A DNA stretch of 64,000 bases from Brevibacillus sp. DP1.3A. Its GTDB lineage: Bacteria > Bacillota > Bacilli > Brevibacillales > Brevibacillaceae. The position numbers and the translations under genes were made by a program. The notes under the pieces are model-generated. The model was not told the DNA's origin. It did not search any database and was given only the letters and a program-made list of their open reading frames with translations. The number at the start of each line of letters is the position of its first letter. The first letter of the stretch is position 1. Positions 2,880-59,583 of this stretch are shown here, piece by piece. The stretch is from assembly GCF_013284245.2 (NCBI RefSeq), contig NZ_CP085876.1, positions 4,261,001-4,325,000 of the forward strand, in the 5' to 3' direction.

Positions 2880-4298
2880 GTGACCACGGTGTCGTCTTCT
2901 ACGCATAATTCTTCAGCTGACACTCTCTTGCGCATTTATGAACATATTTTGGACAGAATGAATGAAGGTGTACATGTCATCGATTCGGACGGAACGACGA
3001 TTGTCTACAATTCCAAAATGACCGAGCTGGAATCGATGACCAGACAAAACGTTTTGCACAAACCTTTGGCAGAGGTTTTTCAGTTCCCGTCTGGACAGGA
3101 AAGTACCTTGCTCACATGCTTGCGTACCGGAAATAGCATTCGCAATACACGCCAAACGTATTTCAACGACAAGCAAAAAGAAATTTCAACCATTAACCAT
3201 ACGTACCCCATCATTGAAAAAGGCAAGATCATCGGCGCAATGGAAATCGCAAATGATGTTACCAAAATGGAACGATTGATCAGAGAAAACCTGCTGCAAA
3301 AAAACGGGTCACGCTACACATTCGAGCACATTATCGGGAGAAGCGGTCCTATTCTCGATGTCATAGAGAATGCCAAACGCGCAGCACGCACCTCCTCATC
3401 CGTATTGGTAGTCGGTGAAACTGGTGCCGGGAAAGAGCTGTTCGTGCAAAGCATTCATAATGCCAGTCTGCGTGCTTCTGGTCCCCTTATTTCACAAAAC
3501 TGCGCAGCGCTTCCGGATAGCCTGATCGAAGGGCTTTTGTTTGGAACTGCTCGCGGAGCATTTACCGGCGCAGTGGAGCGACCTGGATTGTTTGAGCAAG
3601 CGGAAGGCGGAACACTTTTTCTCGATGAAATCAACTCGCTTAGTATGCCACTCCAGGCAAAATTGTTGCGTGCTCTGCAAGAGAAGTCGATTAGACGTAT
3701 TGGTGACACAAAGGATCGGTCGATCGATGTGCGAATCATTGCCGCTATCAATGAAGATCCTGTTGAGGCAATCGCCAATTCGCATTTGCGAAAAGACTTG
3801 TACTATCGACTCGGCGTCGTCACGTTATTTCTCCCCCCGCTTCGGGAACGCAAGGAAGATATTTCGATGCTGGTCAGCCATTTTATCGAGAAATACAATG
3901 AGCTGTTCCAAATGGAAGTAAGAGGCATCAGTGACGAGGTTCTGCAATTTTTTATCCAGCATGACTGGCCTGGGAATGTGCGAGAACTTCAACACTTGAT
4001 TGAGGGGGCCATGAATCTGATGATTGACGAATCAACCATCCGCTATGAACACTTGCCTTTGCACTTTTTGCGTCGTACACCAGCCGCTTCCGTAACGATC
4101 GAGCAACCCTCCCCTCATACATTGCCGTTTGTGGATGAAGGAAAGCCATTGAAGGAAACCATGCAAGAATTTGAAACAGCATATATTCACCATGTTGTGG
4201 AACGCTATAACGGAAATATTTCACGAGCAGCCAAGGAATTGCAAATTAGTCGTCAGAGCTTGCAATATCGTTTGCGTAAGCTGGGGATTAAGGGATAA
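2880..4298 (+). CDS. rocR: RocR-type sigma-54-dependent activator of arginine catabolism
   Basis: The 472-residue regulator has an N-terminal PAS-type sensor (about residues 18-130), a sigma-54 AAA+ domain (about 150-380) and a C-terminal Fis-type helix-turn-helix (about 430-470). Visible motifs are Walker A GETGAGKE (179-186), the sigma-54-contacting GAFTGA loop (226-231) and Walker B GGTLFLDE (243-250). The RGAFTGAVERPGLFEQ context is close to B. subtilis RocR. RocR responds to ornithine or citrulline and opens sigma-54 promoters of roc genes. The GTG start follows AAGGAAAGG. The gene is divergent from rocD, its obvious target; the sigma-54-type promoter of the permease downstream is a second. 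A 259-bp repeat begins 28 bases after its stop. Confidence 0.92.
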   Translation: MTTVSSSTHNSSADTLLRIYEHILDRMNEGVHVIDSDGTTIVYNSKMTELESMTRQNVLHKPLAEVFQFPSGQESTLLTCLRTGNSIRNTRQTYFNDKQKEISTINHTYPIIEKGKIIGAMEIANDVTKMERLIRENLLQKNGSRYTFEHIIGRSGPILDVIENAKRAARTSSSVLVVGETGAGKELFVQSIHNASLRASGPLISQNCAALPDSLIEGLLFGTARGAFTGAVERPGLFEQAEGGTLFLDEINSLSMPLQAKLLRALQEKSIRRIGDTKDRSIDVRIIAAINEDPVEAIANSHLRKDLYYRLGVVTLFLPPLRERKEDISMLVSHFIEKYNELFQMEVRGISDEVLQFFIQHDWPGNVRELQHLIEGAMNLMIDESTIRYEHLPLHFLRRTPAASVTIEQPSPHTLPFVDEGKPLKETMQEFETAYIHHVVERYNGNISRAAKELQISRQSLQYRLRKLGIKG

Positions 4299-4326
4299 AG
4301 AGTACCTTTTAAGAGCATTCTGGTTT

Positions 4327-4585
4327 GAGTCAACATAGTGGAGGAGAAGAAAAAGCACAGTTCTCTTCGACTCTGACACGCCCGCAAGTGGGAATCACTG
4401 TCCGTCTCCATTTCCAAAAGGGGACCGTCGAGCCAAAGCCACCCTACGGGCGGAAGTTTCTCGAGGAAGAAGGGTTCGGCAAGCGTGGTCCCCTTTTTGA
4501 AGTTCCGACTGGGTAGGCATTGTCAAGGTCTACGAGCCCTGCACTTTTTCTTCTCACTAGTTTTGTTGGTTCATCGTTACCTTTT
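4327..4585 (+). repeat. 259-bp structured repeat, copy 1
   Basis: This element is about 92% identical by hand count, without indels, to a second copy at 59325-59583. Its ends form an imperfect inverted repeat of about 34 bases whose inner core (GAGAAGAAAAAG / CTTTTTCTTCTC) is perfect. An internal stem AAAAGGGGACC / GGTCCCCTTTT encloses a block from 4420 to 4455 that is identical in both copies and includes CCACCCTACGGGCGG. A shared 63-71 codon frame exists, but the differences inside it are mostly non-synonymous (about 9 of 11 changed codons), which argues against a protein. A structured RNA, a 3'-UTR element or a MITE are all possible. Confidence 0.8.
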
Positions 4586-4640
4586 AATAATTGCTTAGAT
4601 GTTTTCTATCAGTCCAGTTTTCATCTTATCTTTTTTAATA

Positions 4641-4667
4641 AACGCCAAGAGATTTGGCGTTTTTTTA
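4641..4667 (+). terminator. Terminator between repeat copy 1 and the permease promoter
   Basis: Short stem AACGCCAA / TTGGCGTT with a 4-5 base loop and a run of seven T. It would end transcripts from rocR or from the repeat before the sigma-54 promoter of the permease. Confidence 0.8.
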
Positions 4668-4751
4668 ATTATTTTGCATCAGCTGCCGAAACATTTTGCG
4701 CTTTTTGCCAGTATATACCTCAAAAATAATATTTTCATAAAGTATTTCGTT

Positions 4752-42560: not shown

Positions 42561-45500
42561 TTAAACTTCAAAAATAGATGGACCTGCGTTGAAATAACGT
42601 GCTTCAGGGTGAGCAAATACCATCGCCGATACGGAAGCTTCTGGCTCCATCATGAAGCCCTCTGTCAGCTGAACGCCGATATCCTCTGGACGCAACAGAC
42701 GGAATAACTGCGCCTGATCTTCCAGATTCGGGCAAGCAGGGTAACCGAAGGATACACGAATGCCCTGATATCTAGCACCGAAGCGCTCGAGCATCGTCAT
42801 CTCAACCGGATCCGATATACCCCACACGTCGCGCATGACGTGGTGAATTCGCTCAGCAAATGCCTCTGCCAGCTCCAATGCCAAGGCTTGGAGGACATGG
42901 GAGCGCAAGTAGTCACCACGCTCTTTTAGCTCTGTAGATTTTTCGCGAATCCCTCCCCCAGCCGTTACGGTCAGGAATCCAACATAGTCCATTTCCTTGC
43001 TCTCCACTGGTCGCAAGAAGTCGGACAGGCAAAGATGAGGTTCTTCCAGCTGACGCGGGAACGAAAAGCGCTCCAGCAGCTTGCTGTGGTCTTTTGGATC
43101 ATAGACCAAAATATCGTTGCCATCTGACTGAGCCGGGAAGAACTGATACACACCGTGTGTCGTAATGGTTCCTTTTTGCTTCGCTTCATTTAATAGCTCT
43201 TCCACAATGCCGTACAGTTCCAGTACCTTGTCGTCGCCTGCCTCTATCAATCTATCTACATTTCCGCGAACACCGAGGTGTTTTCCGAGGAGCATCCGCA
43301 GGTTCAAATACGGCTGCAAATGGCTGAGCGGATATTGTCGCAAAACATGTCGTTCACAATCGGGCGGCAGATGGATCGGAACGGTTCTGCTGATGGCTGA
43401 GCGAGCAGGCACTGGTGCTTTTTTCTCCTCAACAACAGGCTGAGCCGTTGCAACTGCTTCCAGCAGATGCTGCTGTTCTTCTACCAAGCGATCACGTTCA
43501 TCCGGATTTTGTAGACGATTCACGAGGTCCAGACCATCCATGGCATCTTTTGCGTATAAAACAATTCCACGGTATTCTGGTGCGATCCGGTTCGATGTGA
43601 ACTTGCGCGTTAACGCCGCACCGCCAACCATCATCGGGATATCAATGCCTGCCTCACGCAGGTCTTGTGCAGTAATGACCATTTGCTGCGCGGATTTCAC
43701 CAAGAGTCCAGAGAGACCGATGGCATCCGGCTTTTCTTCTCTGCATGCGGCAATCAGTTGCTCTGGCGGTACCTTGATCCCCAGGTTCACGACATTGTAG
43801 CCGTTGTTTGACAAAATAATTTCCACGAGGTTTTTTCCGATGTCGTGTACATCGCCCTTGACTGTCGCCAACAAGATTTTCCCCTTGGCAGCGGCATCGC
43901 TTTTTTCCATGAATGGCTCTAAAAACGAAACGGATGCCTTCATAACTTCTGCGCTCTGCAATACTTCTGCCACGATCAGCTGGTTGCCGTTGAACAGGCG
44001 ACCGACCTCTTCCATCCCAGTCATCAACGGACCGTTGATGATCTCGAGCGGTGCGTATTTATCCATAGCCAGCTTCAAGTCTTCCACTAGACCATCCTTG
44101 GAGCCTTCGACTACATAACGGGCCAAGCGTTCTTCGAGCGTTAACGAGGAGACTTCCACACTGACTTCCTTTTTCTTTTGGCGATAAAATTCGGTGAAGG
44201 CCGCCAAGGTCTCATCATTTGTCTCGAATAGAAGGGCTTCTGCCAGCTTTTTCTCGTCTTCTGGAATCGAAGCGTAGCGCTCCAGCTTTTCCGTGTTGAC
44301 GATGGCGTAATCAAGCCCTGCGAGAGTGGTGTGGTACAAGAAGACCGCATTCAGCACTTCCCGACCTGCAGCAGGCAAGCCGAAGGAAACGTTACTGACA
44401 CCCAGGATCGTCTTGCAAGCAGGCATTGCTTGTTTGATTAAACGAATTCCTTCTACGGTTTCCAATGCAGAGCCGATGTATTGTTCATCCCCCGTCCCTA
44501 CTGGAAAGACGAGTGGATCGAAAATAATATCCTGTGGCTTTATTCCATACTGGTTGACAAGAATGTCGTACGAGCGTTGCGCGACCTCCAGCTTCTTTTC
44601 GCGAGTGATAGCCATACCCGCTTCCTCAATCGTTCCAACGACAACGGAGGCACCGAACTTGTGAATAAGCGGAACGACTTCCTCAAATCGCTCCAACCCG
44701 TCTTCCAGGTTGATCGAGTTGAGAATGGCCTTCCCTTGCGAGTAACGAAGTCCCAGCCCCATGACCTTGGCATCTGTCGAGTCGATCATGAGGGGCGCTT
44801 TTACTTTTTTCACGATGAACTGTAGGAATTTTTCCATATCTTCGTATTCATCACGGTCGGGATCAGCCAAGCATATATCGATGACATGTGCGCCGCGCTT
44901 TACTTGGGCCCGGGCAATATCAGATGCTTCTTCATAGTGACCAGCTGCAATCATTTCACGGAATTTTTTGGAACCGATGACATTGGTCCTCTCCCCTACT
45001 AGCAGGGGACGATTGTCATCTTCGACGTAAACGACCTCGATCCCGGAGACCGCGCTCAGCGGTTCTACAGCTGCACTGCGAGGCTTGCAGTCTTTCAATG
45101 CTTCTGCCATCGCTTGAATATGGTCAGGCGTTGTTCCGCAGCAACCGCCAGCGACGTTTATCCAGCCTTGTTCAGCGAATGCCAGCATTTTCGAGGCAAG
45201 TCCTTGTGGCGTTTCATGGTAATGACCGTTCTCATCTGGCAAGCCTGCGTTCGGATAACAACTGACCGCACATTGGGCAATTCCCGACAATGTCCGCAGA
45301 TGATCACGCATGAACTCTGGTCCTGTCGCACAGTTCAGACCAATAGAGACTGGCTTTATATGTTCCAAGGAGATGTAAAACGCCTCGATGTTTTGGCCAG
45401 CAAGCGTCGTGCCCATCGGCTCAATCGTACCTGACAGCATCACTGGGATCTCCTGTCCAAGCTCTTCAAAAGCTTTGCGAATCCCAATTCCACCGGCCTT

Positions 45501-46007
45501 AACGTTCAACGTATCTTGCGAGGTTTCCAAAAGAAGAACATCGGAGCCACCGAGAATCAGACCTTTTGCCTGACGATAATACGCCTCGACCAGTTCTTCA
45601 AAAGTGACACCGCCTGTCAACGAAAGGGTTTTGGTCGTAGGTCCCATTGCACCAGCTACAAAACGCGGCCACTCCTCCGTGGAATAGGCATCCACCGCTT
45701 CTCTGGCCAAGCGTGCTGCCGCTATATTGATCTCAAGGTCTTTCTCTGGCACATCGTACTCGGCTAAAACGATGGAAGCAGCACCAAACGTATTTGTTTC
45801 GACGATGTCTGCTCCCGCCTCTAAATATTTCTCATGAATGGAACGGATCACATCTGGTCTGGTCAAGTTCAAGAGTTCATTACAGCCATCATAGGCTTCA
45901 CCGCCGAAATCATCAGCAGTCAGGTTCGCCTGTTGAAGCATGGTGCCCATTGCACCATCCAGAATCAGAATTTTCCGGGAAAGCTGTTCGCGAAAAGTTG
46001 GTTTCAT
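42561..46007 (-). CDS. metH: Cobalamin-dependent methionine synthase
   Basis: The 1148-residue enzyme methylates homocysteine with methyl-cobalamin. Domains in order: homocysteine-binding (zinc Cys in SIGLNCATG and VAGGCCGTTPDH, about 1-310), pterin-binding (about 325-600; RTNVIGSKKF, FDPLVFPVGTGDEQY), cap, B12-binding with DVHDIGKN (His ligand near 720), and AdoMet-reactivation domain (about 900-1140; YPACPNLEDQ, FMMEPEASVSAM). The start at 46007 is preceded by GGGG. It is controlled by the S-box at 46129-46230 and is followed by yitJ. Confidence 0.95.
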   Translation of the reverse strand: MKPTFREQLSRKILILDGAMGTMLQQANLTADDFGGEAYDGCNELLNLTRPDVIRSIHEKYLEAGADIVETNTFGAASIVLAEYDVPEKDLEINIAAARLAREAVDAYSTEEWPRFVAGAMGPTTKTLSLTGGVTFEELVEAYYRQAKGLILGGSDVLLLETSQDTLNVKAGGIGIRKAFEELGQEIPVMLSGTIEPMGTTLAGQNIEAFYISLEHIKPVSIGLNCATGPEFMRDHLRTLSGIAQCAVSCYPNAGLPDENGHYHETPQGLASKMLAFAEQGWINVAGGCCGTTPDHIQAMAEALKDCKPRSAAVEPLSAVSGIEVVYVEDDNRPLLVGERTNVIGSKKFREMIAAGHYEEASDIARAQVKRGAHVIDICLADPDRDEYEDMEKFLQFIVKKVKAPLMIDSTDAKVMGLGLRYSQGKAILNSINLEDGLERFEEVVPLIHKFGASVVVGTIEEAGMAITREKKLEVAQRSYDILVNQYGIKPQDIIFDPLVFPVGTGDEQYIGSALETVEGIRLIKQAMPACKTILGVSNVSFGLPAAGREVLNAVFLYHTTLAGLDYAIVNTEKLERYASIPEDEKKLAEALLFETNDETLAAFTEFYRQKKKEVSVEVSSLTLEERLARYVVEGSKDGLVEDLKLAMDKYAPLEIINGPLMTGMEEVGRLFNGNQLIVAEVLQSAEVMKASVSFLEPFMEKSDAAAKGKILLATVKGDVHDIGKNLVEIILSNNGYNVVNLGIKVPPEQLIAACREEKPDAIGLSGLLVKSAQQMVITAQDLREAGIDIPMMVGGAALTRKFTSNRIAPEYRGIVLYAKDAMDGLDLVNRLQNPDERDRLVEEQQHLLEAVATAQPVVEEKKAPVPARSAISRTVPIHLPPDCERHVLRQYPLSHLQPYLNLRMLLGKHLGVRGNVDRLIEAGDDKVLELYGIVEELLNEAKQKGTITTHGVYQFFPAQSDGNDILVYDPKDHSKLLERFSFPRQLEEPHLCLSDFLRPVESKEMDYVGFLTVTAGGGIREKSTELKERGDYLRSHVLQALALELAEAFAERIHHVMRDVWGISDPVEMTMLERFGARYQGIRVSFGYPACPNLEDQAQLFRLLRPEDIGVQLTEGFMMEPEASVSAMVFAHPEARYFNAGPSIFEV

Positions 46008-46128: not shown

Positions 46129-46230
46129 CTCTTATCTTTCAAAGCACGTAGCTTTGCTGGAATTGGCACCGGATTTTTACCGGTTGCCGAGGCTTCATCA
46201 GGCCAGTCCCTCTGCCTCTCTGGATAAGAG
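46129..46230 (-). ncRNA. SAM-I riboswitch (S-box) of the metH-yitJ operon
   Basis: Read on the minus strand, the sequence has the S-box core: closing helix CTTATC / GATAAG, the conserved AGAGGCAGAGGGACTGGCC, then GATGAAGCC and CGGCAACC, the P3 arm CCGGTAAAAATCCGGTGCC, and AATTCCAGCAAA. The layout matches the SAM-I class that shuts off methionine genes when SAM is abundant. A terminator (46060-46098) lies downstream. The promoter is at 46283-46312. Confidence 0.95.
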
Positions 46231-57880: not shown

Positions 57881-59302
57881 ATGGAAAAAGCTGCGGAGAT
57901 ACTAGCATTGTCTTCTGTTGATCGTTTTATTGACATCCTGAACACACTGGCAGATGGCATATTCATTGCTGATGCGCAGGGAACTACTTTATGGTTAAAC
58001 AATGCCAGTGAAAACCTGTGTGGTCTACCAAAAGCCGAACTCATCGGGCAAAACGTATCCGACCTCGAAGAAATGGGGATTTTCAGTCCTTCAGTTACCC
58101 GCTTGGTTTTAGAAACGGGAAAACCGACCACAACCATTCAACTCGTCAATAGTAAAGGGAAGTTCCTGGTGACCGGGCATATCATCCCGGATGAGGATGG
58201 GAGACCGGAGCTGATCGTTTCCCACTCACGTGATATCACAGAGGCAGCCCGTGCCAGTTCGCAGCTGGAAGAGACGGTCGCTTTGCTTAAGCGGTACAGC
58301 GAAGAGATTCAGCTCATGAAGTGGGAAGCGAGCCAGAGCTCTTCTCAAACCATGATTGGCAACAGTCGTTCCTATCTCGCCCTGTTGGAATTAATGAAAA
58401 AAGCAGCCCCTGTCGACACAACTGTGTTTATTACGGGTGAAACAGGCGTAGGAAAAAGCTATCTTGCGGAGCAAATCCACCAGTTGAGCGGACGAAGAAG
58501 CGGGCCGTTCGTCCACGTCAACTGTAGCGCCATTCCCGAAACCTTGATCGAATCAGAGCTGTTCGGCTACCACAAAGGGGCATTTACGGGGGCGAGTCAC
58601 TCGGGGAAAATCGGATTAGTGAAAATGGCGGACAAAGGGACGCTTTTCTTGGACGAAATCAGCGAGCTTCCCTACCACTTGCAATCGAAATTATTGCTGC
58701 TCCTGCAAAACAAAACGTTTATGCCAATCGGCGGCACCAAAACATACACAGCTGACATCCGCATCATAACGGCAACCAATGCCAACCTTCAGGAGCTCGT
58801 GCGGTTGGGCAAATTCAGACACGACCTGTACTATCGCCTTAATATTTTGCCAATCAATGTTCCGCCATTACGGGAGAGAAAGGACGATATTTTCCCGTTA
58901 CTCCACCATAATTTACAGCGATTCAATAGCAAGCATAACCAGAAACGGCGTTTTTCCCCGGAAGCGCTGGATGTTTTGCATCAATACGAATGGCCTGGGA
59001 ATGTGCGGGAGTTGGAAAATTTGGTAGAGCGGATCGTCATCACGTCCAAGCTGGATGAAATCCAAGTCAGCGATTTACCAGAAGAACTGCGGAGTATTCG
59101 GGAGCTGGAGGAAGGGATTCTTTCACTCGGTTCTCTTTCTCTTACCGAGCGGATGGAGAAAATTGAGATGGAATTTATTCTGCAAGCATTGCGCACACAC
59201 AAAACGACACGCAAAACAGCAGCGGCCCTCGGTATAACCCAGTCGCTACTTATGCGGCGGATTAAAAAGTATGGGATTCAACTGGATTTTGAGGAAGAGT
59301 GA
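57881..59302 (+). CDS. PAS-containing sigma-54-dependent activator
   Basis: The 473-residue protein has an N-terminal PAS sensor (about 15-125), AAA+ domain (about 157-385) with Walker A GETGVGKS (186-193), GAFTGA (233-238) and GTLFLDE (253-259), and a C-terminal Fis-type helix-turn-helix (KTTRKTAAALGITQSLLMRRIKKYG). The ATG follows GGGGAG. It has no receiver domain, so it is not an AtoC-type response regulator, but plays the same role for the divergent CoA-transferase operon. The ligand sensed by the PAS domain is unknown. The 259-bp repeat begins 22 bases after its stop. Confidence 0.92.
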   Translation: MEKAAEILALSSVDRFIDILNTLADGIFIADAQGTTLWLNNASENLCGLPKAELIGQNVSDLEEMGIFSPSVTRLVLETGKPTTTIQLVNSKGKFLVTGHIIPDEDGRPELIVSHSRDITEAARASSQLEETVALLKRYSEEIQLMKWEASQSSSQTMIGNSRSYLALLELMKKAAPVDTTVFITGETGVGKSYLAEQIHQLSGRRSGPFVHVNCSAIPETLIESELFGYHKGAFTGASHSGKIGLVKMADKGTLFLDEISELPYHLQSKLLLLLQNKTFMPIGGTKTYTADIRIITATNANLQELVRLGKFRHDLYYRLNILPINVPPLRERKDDIFPLLHHNLQRFNSKHNQKRRFSPEALDVLHQYEWPGNVRELENLVERIVITSKLDEIQVSDLPEELRSIRELEEGILSLGSLSLTERMEKIEMEFILQALRTHKTTRKTAAALGITQSLLMRRIKKYGIQLDFEEE

Positions 59303-59324: not shown

Positions 59325-59583
59325 GAGTCAACATAGTGGAGGAGAAGAAAAAGCGCAGTTCTCTTCGACTCTGACACGCCCGCAAGAGAGATTGACTGTC
59401 CGTCTCCACTTAAAAAAGGGGACCGTCGAGCCAAAGCCACCCTACGGGCGGAAGATTCTCAAGGAAGAAGTGTTCGACAAGCGTGGTCCCCTTTTTGAAG
59501 TTCCGACTGGGTAGGCGTTGTCAAGGTCTGCGAGTCCTGCGCTTTTTCTTCTCACCAGCTTTATTGGTTCATCGATACCTTTA
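59325..59583 (+). repeat. 259-bp structured repeat, copy 2
   Basis: Same length as copy 1 (4327-4585), no indels, about 20 substitutions by hand count. The terminal stem (GAGAAGAAAAAGCGCAG / CTGCGCTTTTTCTTCTC) is perfectly paired here; copy 1 has two A-C mispairs at the same place. The GGGGACC / GGTCCCC internal stem and the CCACCCTACGGGCGG block are unchanged. Like copy 1, it follows a PAS/AAA+ sigma-54 activator gene in the same direction, 22 bases after the stop. A shared reading frame exists but its changes are not protein-like. Confidence 0.8.

Follow-up and report, generated by a model that had tools for sequence, protein, structure and literature searches.

The two 259-bp copies contained in the window (the stretch of 64,000 nucleotides of Brevibacillus sp. 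DP1.3A analysed here) are members of a dispersed, non-coding family of long hairpins of Brevibacillaceae, a conclusion that many independent results support. This family is large, conserved and structured, and it has no match in Rfam 15. With moderate confidence, we regard it as a non-autonomous mobile structured element that is targeted to terminator hairpins and whose fold is still under selection. The initial annotation, which had proposed a structured RNA or a MITE and not a gene, was supported on the points tested, namely further copies, covarying stems, empty sites and the lack of a reading frame.

Copies, subfamilies and distribution of the hairpin family

Both window copies are 259 bp long and differ at 21 positions with no indels, in line with the equal length and the roughly 20 differences counted earlier by hand. 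Their ends can pair, as had been predicted; the second stem, formed by AAAAGGGGACC and GGTCCCCTTTT, is present (Table 1), and the block described as unchanged corresponds to the lack of any difference between the copies at element positions 89 to 131. The description as a two-copy element holds inside the window only. In the window genome (G000), blastn gave 27 rows; merging of split rows and of palindromic back-matches reduced these to 22 distinct sites. The covariance model R1 of the minus strand, for which 37 copies of the clade and one divergent relative were used, gave 54 matches at E 0.01 that fall into two subfamilies.

Table 1. Coordinates of the hairpin copies and their parts (window positions unless a genome and contig are given)
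Feature	Position	Strand	Sequence, partner or basis
Copy 1 of the hairpin element	4327-4585	minus (better-folding strand)	blastn and model R1
Copy 1, covariance-model core	4367-4535	minus	R1, 197.9 bits, E 2.4e-44
Copy 1, base stem, outer arm	4344-4360	plus	GAGAAGAAAAAGCACAG; partner 4539-4555
Copy 1, base stem, other arm	4539-4555	plus	CTGCACTTTTTCTTCTC; partner 4344-4360
Copy 1, inner stem arm	4416-4426		AAAAGGGGACC; partner arm 4487-4497
Copy 1, inner stem arm	4487-4497		GGTCCCCTTTT; partner arm 4416-4426
Copy 1, conserved core motif	4398-4410	minus	TGGAGACGGACAG; comparison across subfamilies by eye
Copy 1, facing strand of core internal loop	4503-4513	minus	CCCAGTCGGAA
Copy 2 of the hairpin element	59325-59583	minus (better-folding strand)	blastn and model R1
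Copy 2, covariance-model core	59365-59533	minus	R1, 206.5 bits, E 2.3e-46
Shortened copy, example	G013:C1:6143415-6143550		
Shortened copy, example	G015:C1:1206939-1207100		
Shortened copy, example	G000:C1:138314-138440		

Searches of the genus confirmed that copies are numerous. Among its 26 genomes, blastn returned 21-28 rows in nine, one or two weak rows in two and none in 15, and R1 at E 0.001 found matches in 23. The two weak blastn hits of G001 proved to be family members; the single hit of G007 had by eye the appearance of coding sequence and was excluded as a member, and 18 R1 matches were found in that genome. At E 1e-5 the broader model R2 matched in 30 of the 39 genomes of the order, which cover five of its seven genera; three of the nine order genomes without a match belong to Brevibacillus, and one of the nine, G009, contains three weak R1 matches. 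When 250 genomes sampled evenly from the class were scored under stricter filters, R2 matched in 14, 13 of them in Brevibacillaceae. The other, G087, belongs to another family of the class, outside the order, and harbors 26 R2 matches up to E 1 (best 1e-6), 25 of which are full length. G035, a congener of G087, showed no match, and a horizontal arrival in G087 is possible. Named carriers recovered by an exact-pattern scan of 45 stretches, which possibly left out close kin of the window genome, were Brevibacillus formosus, B. fortis and B. porteri. The family therefore appears in many Brevibacillus species with up to dozens of copies per genome, and copy number, orientation and subfamily differ from species to species.

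In agreement with the initial failure to recognise a riboswitch or repeat family, no Rfam family matched the element at gathering score, the only hits being SAM and TPP riboswitches elsewhere; five diverse element loci gave nothing at E 0.5, and positions 4200-4700 of the window gave chance-level hits only at E up to 10. The SAM (S-box) riboswitch lies at 46129-46230 of the window on the minus strand (96.4 bits), upstream of the minus-strand ORF 42561-46007. A phage or plasmid origin was discarded, as 50,697 phage records and 72,556 plasmid records, searched by blastn with words of 11, contained nothing that matched. A search of the open-access full-text literature found no description of the family.

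The second subfamily of G000 occurs as X'-Y pairs, in which an inverted partner is followed by a Y hairpin, and forms tandem arrays whose units recur about every 518 bp, with five X' starts in locus L249 and four in L248. Tandem Repeats Finder, with a longest period of 500, returned nothing for the 518-bp array. Tandem hairpin units were also found at L250 (G000) and at L263-L265 (G001), the latter genome containing an array with a 352-bp period, and the array sizes listed vary between species. Since neighbouring units of L249 were 95% identical in one comparison and 100% identical in another, this array is young at least in part. Some copies are shortened (Table 1): the top of the hairpin is lost and both base arms are kept, as slippage across a palindrome would do.

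Fold, covariation and constraint on individual copies

Folded as RNA and compared with 200 shuffles, copy 1 gave z values of -4.0 on the plus strand and -4.8 on the minus strand, with no shuffle as good on either strand. As DNA the margin was smaller, with z values for the two strands of -2.4 (one of 200 shuffles as good) and -3.4 (none of 200). An RNAalifold analysis of 153 near-full copies gave -62.8 for the minus strand versus -41.4 for the plus strand; the better-folding strand is therefore the opposite of the one initially read. Wobble intermediates did not single out a strand: on strand-neutral pairs, the ratio of G-U to A-C was 15:10, 13:3 and 17:10 under three definitions, and a count of 47 G-U versus 16 A-C was biased by the fold chosen.

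A common architecture is found in very different sequences. It comprises an A/G-rich base stem, a middle stem, an internal loop and an apical stem whose head varies, together with a large asymmetric loop that has a CAGT...CCC-like side. The base stem has 17 bp in the family consensus, and the version of copy 1 contains mismatches. In copy 1, TGGAGACGGACAG and the facing CCCAGTCGGAA form a 3x3 purine internal loop, GGA/AGG, which is also the prevalent form across the family, where a G-N-C/G-N-C pair triplet adjoins it. According to a comparison of R1 hits by eye, the TGGAG side of this loop is kept nearly always; opposite it, the window family, G047, G050, G051 and G087 have GGA, and certain copies of Y and of G001 have GAA or GCA.

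The stems, whose conservation in further copies was in question at the outset, covary strongly. In alignment A3 (45 matches, 41 distinct rows), which was fitted to the structure so that its counts lean towards it, both sides changed in 22 of 40 pairs, and 214 cells were double-changed versus 68.6 +/- 7.2 after shuffling (none of 500 shuffles reached 214) and at most 36 in slid controls. Two other measures were weaker: seven of 500 shuffles reached the count of double-changed pairs, and the pair-type diversity was 53 versus 53.1 in shuffled alignments. Furthermore, in many ortholog groups the outer pairs of the inner stem have switched jointly (C-G, A-T, T-A), and these switches postdate speciation. 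The compensatory changes seen in A3 indicate a folded single strand more than a duplex motif.

Individual copies are also constrained in place. In alignments of orthologs the element was 93.5% identical, with 0.65% gaps, and the near flanks were 88.1% identical, with 11% gaps. When the neutral rate was taken from the group-wise alignment of orthologous flanks, 6.2 changes per column were predicted for 20 ortholog groups, and 80 of the 246 element columns showed none. On the other hand, 27 columns changed at least 1.6 times as often as this expectation, with up to 28 changes; the excess at columns 82, 86, 95, 100, 154 and 156 over flanking DNA might reflect mutation hot spots of an extruded hairpin or an underestimated neutral rate. 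At conserved columns, truncated copies differed from the consensus at 67 of 2507 sites (26 copies, 2.7%) and intact copies at 124 of 22475 (146 copies, 0.55%), a weak control in that a single old and decayed site, S23, contributed 44 of the 67 differences and intact copies served to define the columns. Template switching from arm to arm could keep stems paired, but it would not fix unpaired loop columns, and a purely selfish element would not be expected to show constraint on each copy.

We found no sign that gene conversion lies behind the similarity of the copies. For the 146 copies in groups of at least three, the nearest relative was an ortholog in 106 cases, a paralog of the same genome in three and another copy (drafts included) in 37. 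Five of 23 ortholog groups were monophyletic in the tree, which we put down to the few, saturated variable columns.

Orientation, site age and neighbouring terminators

In the six complete genomes of the brevis clade, 141 of 141 copies had one orientation relative to replication, a count that includes short remnants and represents only about 30 independent sites (30 site groups). In G000, the 11 sites below 2.2 Mb are all on the minus strand and the 11 above 3.9 Mb all on the plus strand; the same rule was followed by the 23 sites of G006 and by the 23, 24, 24 and 25 sites of G002, G013, G015 and G019, respectively. In G000 the dnaA gene opens C1; it was also located in eleven further genomes, and the terminus was taken as opposite to it. 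The folded strand, minus in the window, is always codirectional with the fork in this clade, and the GC skew of the window agrees. With R1 at E 0.01, 49 of the 54 G000 matches were codirectional; the other five were the weakest of this genome (E 3e-4 and above) and are taken to be the inverted partner type X', an identity that one of them, L258, shows by its place beside a Y copy. The orientation bias is weaker or absent outside the brevis clade: codirectional matches were 27 of 33 in G001 at E 0.01, and 13 of 20, 4 of 9 and 8 of 26 at E 1 in G050, G051 and G087.

Comparison of flanks, carried out on the six complete genomes and on stretches of three named drafts, defined 30 site groups from 29 clusters, one of which was split by hand into two sites. 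As 18 of these groups were present in all six genomes, at least as remnants, and 24 in at least four, most copies predate the six species, and the 18 groups common to all imply that mobility is rare. Four groups were single-copy, two in G002 and two in drafts. The two G002-only copies are recent insertions, each having an empty site in all eight other clade genomes; empty sites, which the initial annotation had tied to a MITE, were accordingly present in both cases examined among the four single-genome copies. The flanking target duplications linked with them in the same proposal were not visible at either insertion when compared with the eight empty sites each.

Read on the folded strand, the empty sites consist of a strong stem-loop and a T-run followed by the join, and in the filled sites the extra DNA begins within a few bases of the T-run. 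The two insertions carry about 320 and 450 bp (hand count) and differ in this extent and in the length of their ends. Their edge sequences are common to other copies, which shows that the moving unit is longer than the 259 bp initially taken as the element and that old copies have frayed edges. By eye, this unit includes a second, short hairpin, located upstream with respect to the folded strand, and the longer units end in short inverted sequences that match imperfectly. At L075:1501-3054 of G006 an element copy is split by an insertion sequence, which has an ORF of 443 aa encoding an rve integrase-core transposase; the two parts of the element share 7 bp there, which is what a target duplication would produce.

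A stem-loop with a T-run was found within 200 nt upstream on the folded strand for 165 of 166 copies, some of these hits using the element's own AAGTTTT edge, compared with 46 of 166 downstream on the folded strand and, for the opposite end, 84 of 166. Because part of the main count uses that edge, the two clean empty sites are the firmer evidence, and at both of them the insertion lies directly behind the T-run of an intrinsic terminator. A rough ORF reading of two genomes indicates that, at 23 of the 25 site groups listed, the upstream-side gene is directed towards the element in one genome or both. Copy 1 of the window is one of the two exceptions, with no upstream-side gene reading towards it on the folded strand; it is located between two plus-strand genes, encoding a sigma-54 activator and an amino acid permease, and by eye a terminator-like hairpin is found at about 4640-4666. 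Both window copies are directly behind a plus-strand gene for a sigma-54 activator with a PAS domain (2880-4298 and 57881-59302), which may be due to chance.

Proposed origin and comparison with known systems

That the copies encode a small protein is extremely improbable. Stop-free plus-strand stretches of at least 60 codons do occur in 147 of 153 copies, with a mean of 75 codons versus 56 in letter-shuffled copies, but the longest stretch is spread over the three frames (65, 44 and 44 of the 153 copies), core lengths shift by one base between copies, and even the two window copies, credited initially with a shared frame of 60-70 codons, differ in their longest stop-free plus-strand frame. 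Within groups, changes in the frame of copy 1 were 184 synonymous and 495 non-synonymous versus 154 and 467 possible (ratio 0.89), and the codon positions were hit evenly (202, 243 and 234). The frame spread, the ratio and this evenness led us to reject a coding gene, and the earlier remark that the frame is unlike that of a conserved protein was borne out by the absence of synonymous bias and of a kept frame in 153 copies. A rather unlikely, although far more substantial, alternative is that the copies are multi-copy genes for a structured non-coding RNA, which would be transcribed from the minus strand, codirectional with the fork, would act in trans for the host and would have been widely duplicated. 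The genes for rRNA and tRNA are codirectional with replication, as are the copies of the brevis clade, and the RNA genes would also account for the better fold of the minus strand (-62.8 versus -41.4), the strong covariation, the constraint in place on loops and stems and the higher deviation of truncated copies at conserved sites (2.7% versus 0.55%, with 44 of the 67 differences from S23). Nevertheless, a non-systematic inspection by eye of the stretch from the upstream terminator to the hairpin revealed nothing conserved that resembles a promoter, species differ in copy number, orientation and subfamily, and nine of the 39 order genomes had no match at E 1e-5 (G009 among them, with its three weak R1 matches).

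An ordinary MITE of a DDE transposase, i.e. an internally deleted insertion sequence with terminal inverted repeats and target duplication, would likewise be intergenic, non-coding, hairpin-forming and dispersed, with empty sites, and the short imperfect inverted ends seen by eye in the longer units would suit it. We consider this origin improbable, as no target duplication was seen at the two sites examined, the conserved internal loop and the internal covariation go far beyond terminal repeats, and a one-way orientation is not expected of such elements. Still less probable would be a double-stranded chromosomal landmark, such as a binding site for a fork- or segregation-related protein that needs one orientation. 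The orthologous positions, the constraint (80 of 246 columns unchanged) and the uniform orientation of 141 copies in six genomes are what such a site would show; however, the compensatory changes favour a folded single strand over a duplex motif, the X' partners of G000 are reversed, and counter-oriented matches were found in G001 (6 of 33), G050 (7 of 20), G051 (5 of 9) and G087 (18 of 26).

Returning to a mobile element targeted to terminators, we propose that a non-autonomous unit would be moved by an enzyme acting in trans that reads the folded strand. The unit would enter DNA in the single-stranded state, immediately 3' of the stem-loop and T-run of a terminator, probably in the lagging-strand template, where only terminators of fork-codirectional genes would expose that sense, hence the single orientation. 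Movement, and its direction to terminators, is indicated by two clean cases and a statistical trend, and we infer the use of single-stranded lagging-strand DNA from the orientation and the target. After insertion the fold might be kept for a continuing role, either as RNA from the folded strand or as a protein-binding or fork-active hairpin. We tentatively suggest, as a possibility only, that these copies represent a class of terminator-homing elements, in which a folded strand of at least 230 nt would be read at its purine loop, inserted into the lagging-strand template just behind terminator stem-loops, on their 3' side, without target duplication and retained by the host as a functional RNA or hairpin at dozens of loci. 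The 30 site groups are natural replicates and, together with the recent insertions with empty sites and the orientation rule, allow two questions to be put to the test: what draws insertions to terminator hairpins while DNA is replicated, and for what reason bacteria retain dozens of long-hairpin copies at fixed places.

Prokaryotic MITEs, BOX, RUP and SPRITE are described as small, intergenic, non-coding, stem-loop-forming, dispersed and non-autonomous, with terminal inverted repeats and with direct repeats that are said to wane with time (PMC10969869). The hairpin family shares the first six of these properties; unlike the repeats depicted there, it showed no direct repeat even at two recent insertions, its internal loop is conserved, its copies are constrained once inserted and its orientation is fixed. 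The hairpins of REP/BIME and of elements of the IS200/IS605 type are read as single strands and occur in inverted pairs and arrays. Inverted pairs and arrays are also found in the hairpin family, for which a single-strand reading and a lagging-strand preference would be further likenesses; unlike the short palindrome of REP/BIME, its hairpin has at least 230 nt and its insertions lie at terminators. IS200/IS605 elements are linked with the lagging strand, group IIC introns target transcriptional terminators, and introns without endonuclease lean on host replication (PMC7923331). Like group IIC introns, the hairpin element was located directly behind an intrinsic terminator at both recent insertions. 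The T-run forms part of the similarity. Unlike these introns, the hairpin element is much shorter and no exon-joining logic was seen; Rfam scans revealed no group II intron core (domain V), either up to E 10 in the window copy or up to E 0.5 in five further loci.

Bacillus cereus likewise has repeats dispersed over its chromosome, bcr1-bcr18, some of them similar in character to structured RNA; the hairpin family was instead encountered in Brevibacillaceae and in a single genome from elsewhere in the class. The nearest precedent would be the 190-bp repeat of Bacillus subtilis, of which Kunst et al. reportedly described 10 copies in 1997. This repeat is dispersed, has nearly all its copies in one orientation relative to the fork, has a secondary structure that compensatory changes preserve and is suspected to be a structural RNA. 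A single fork orientation is shared by the 141 brevis-clade copies of the hairpin family and not by those of G001, G050, G051 and G087; compared with the B. subtilis repeat, the hairpin family is longer, has up to dozens of copies and includes inverted pairs and tandem arrays. A question similar to ours has been posed for the B. subtilis repeat since 1997.
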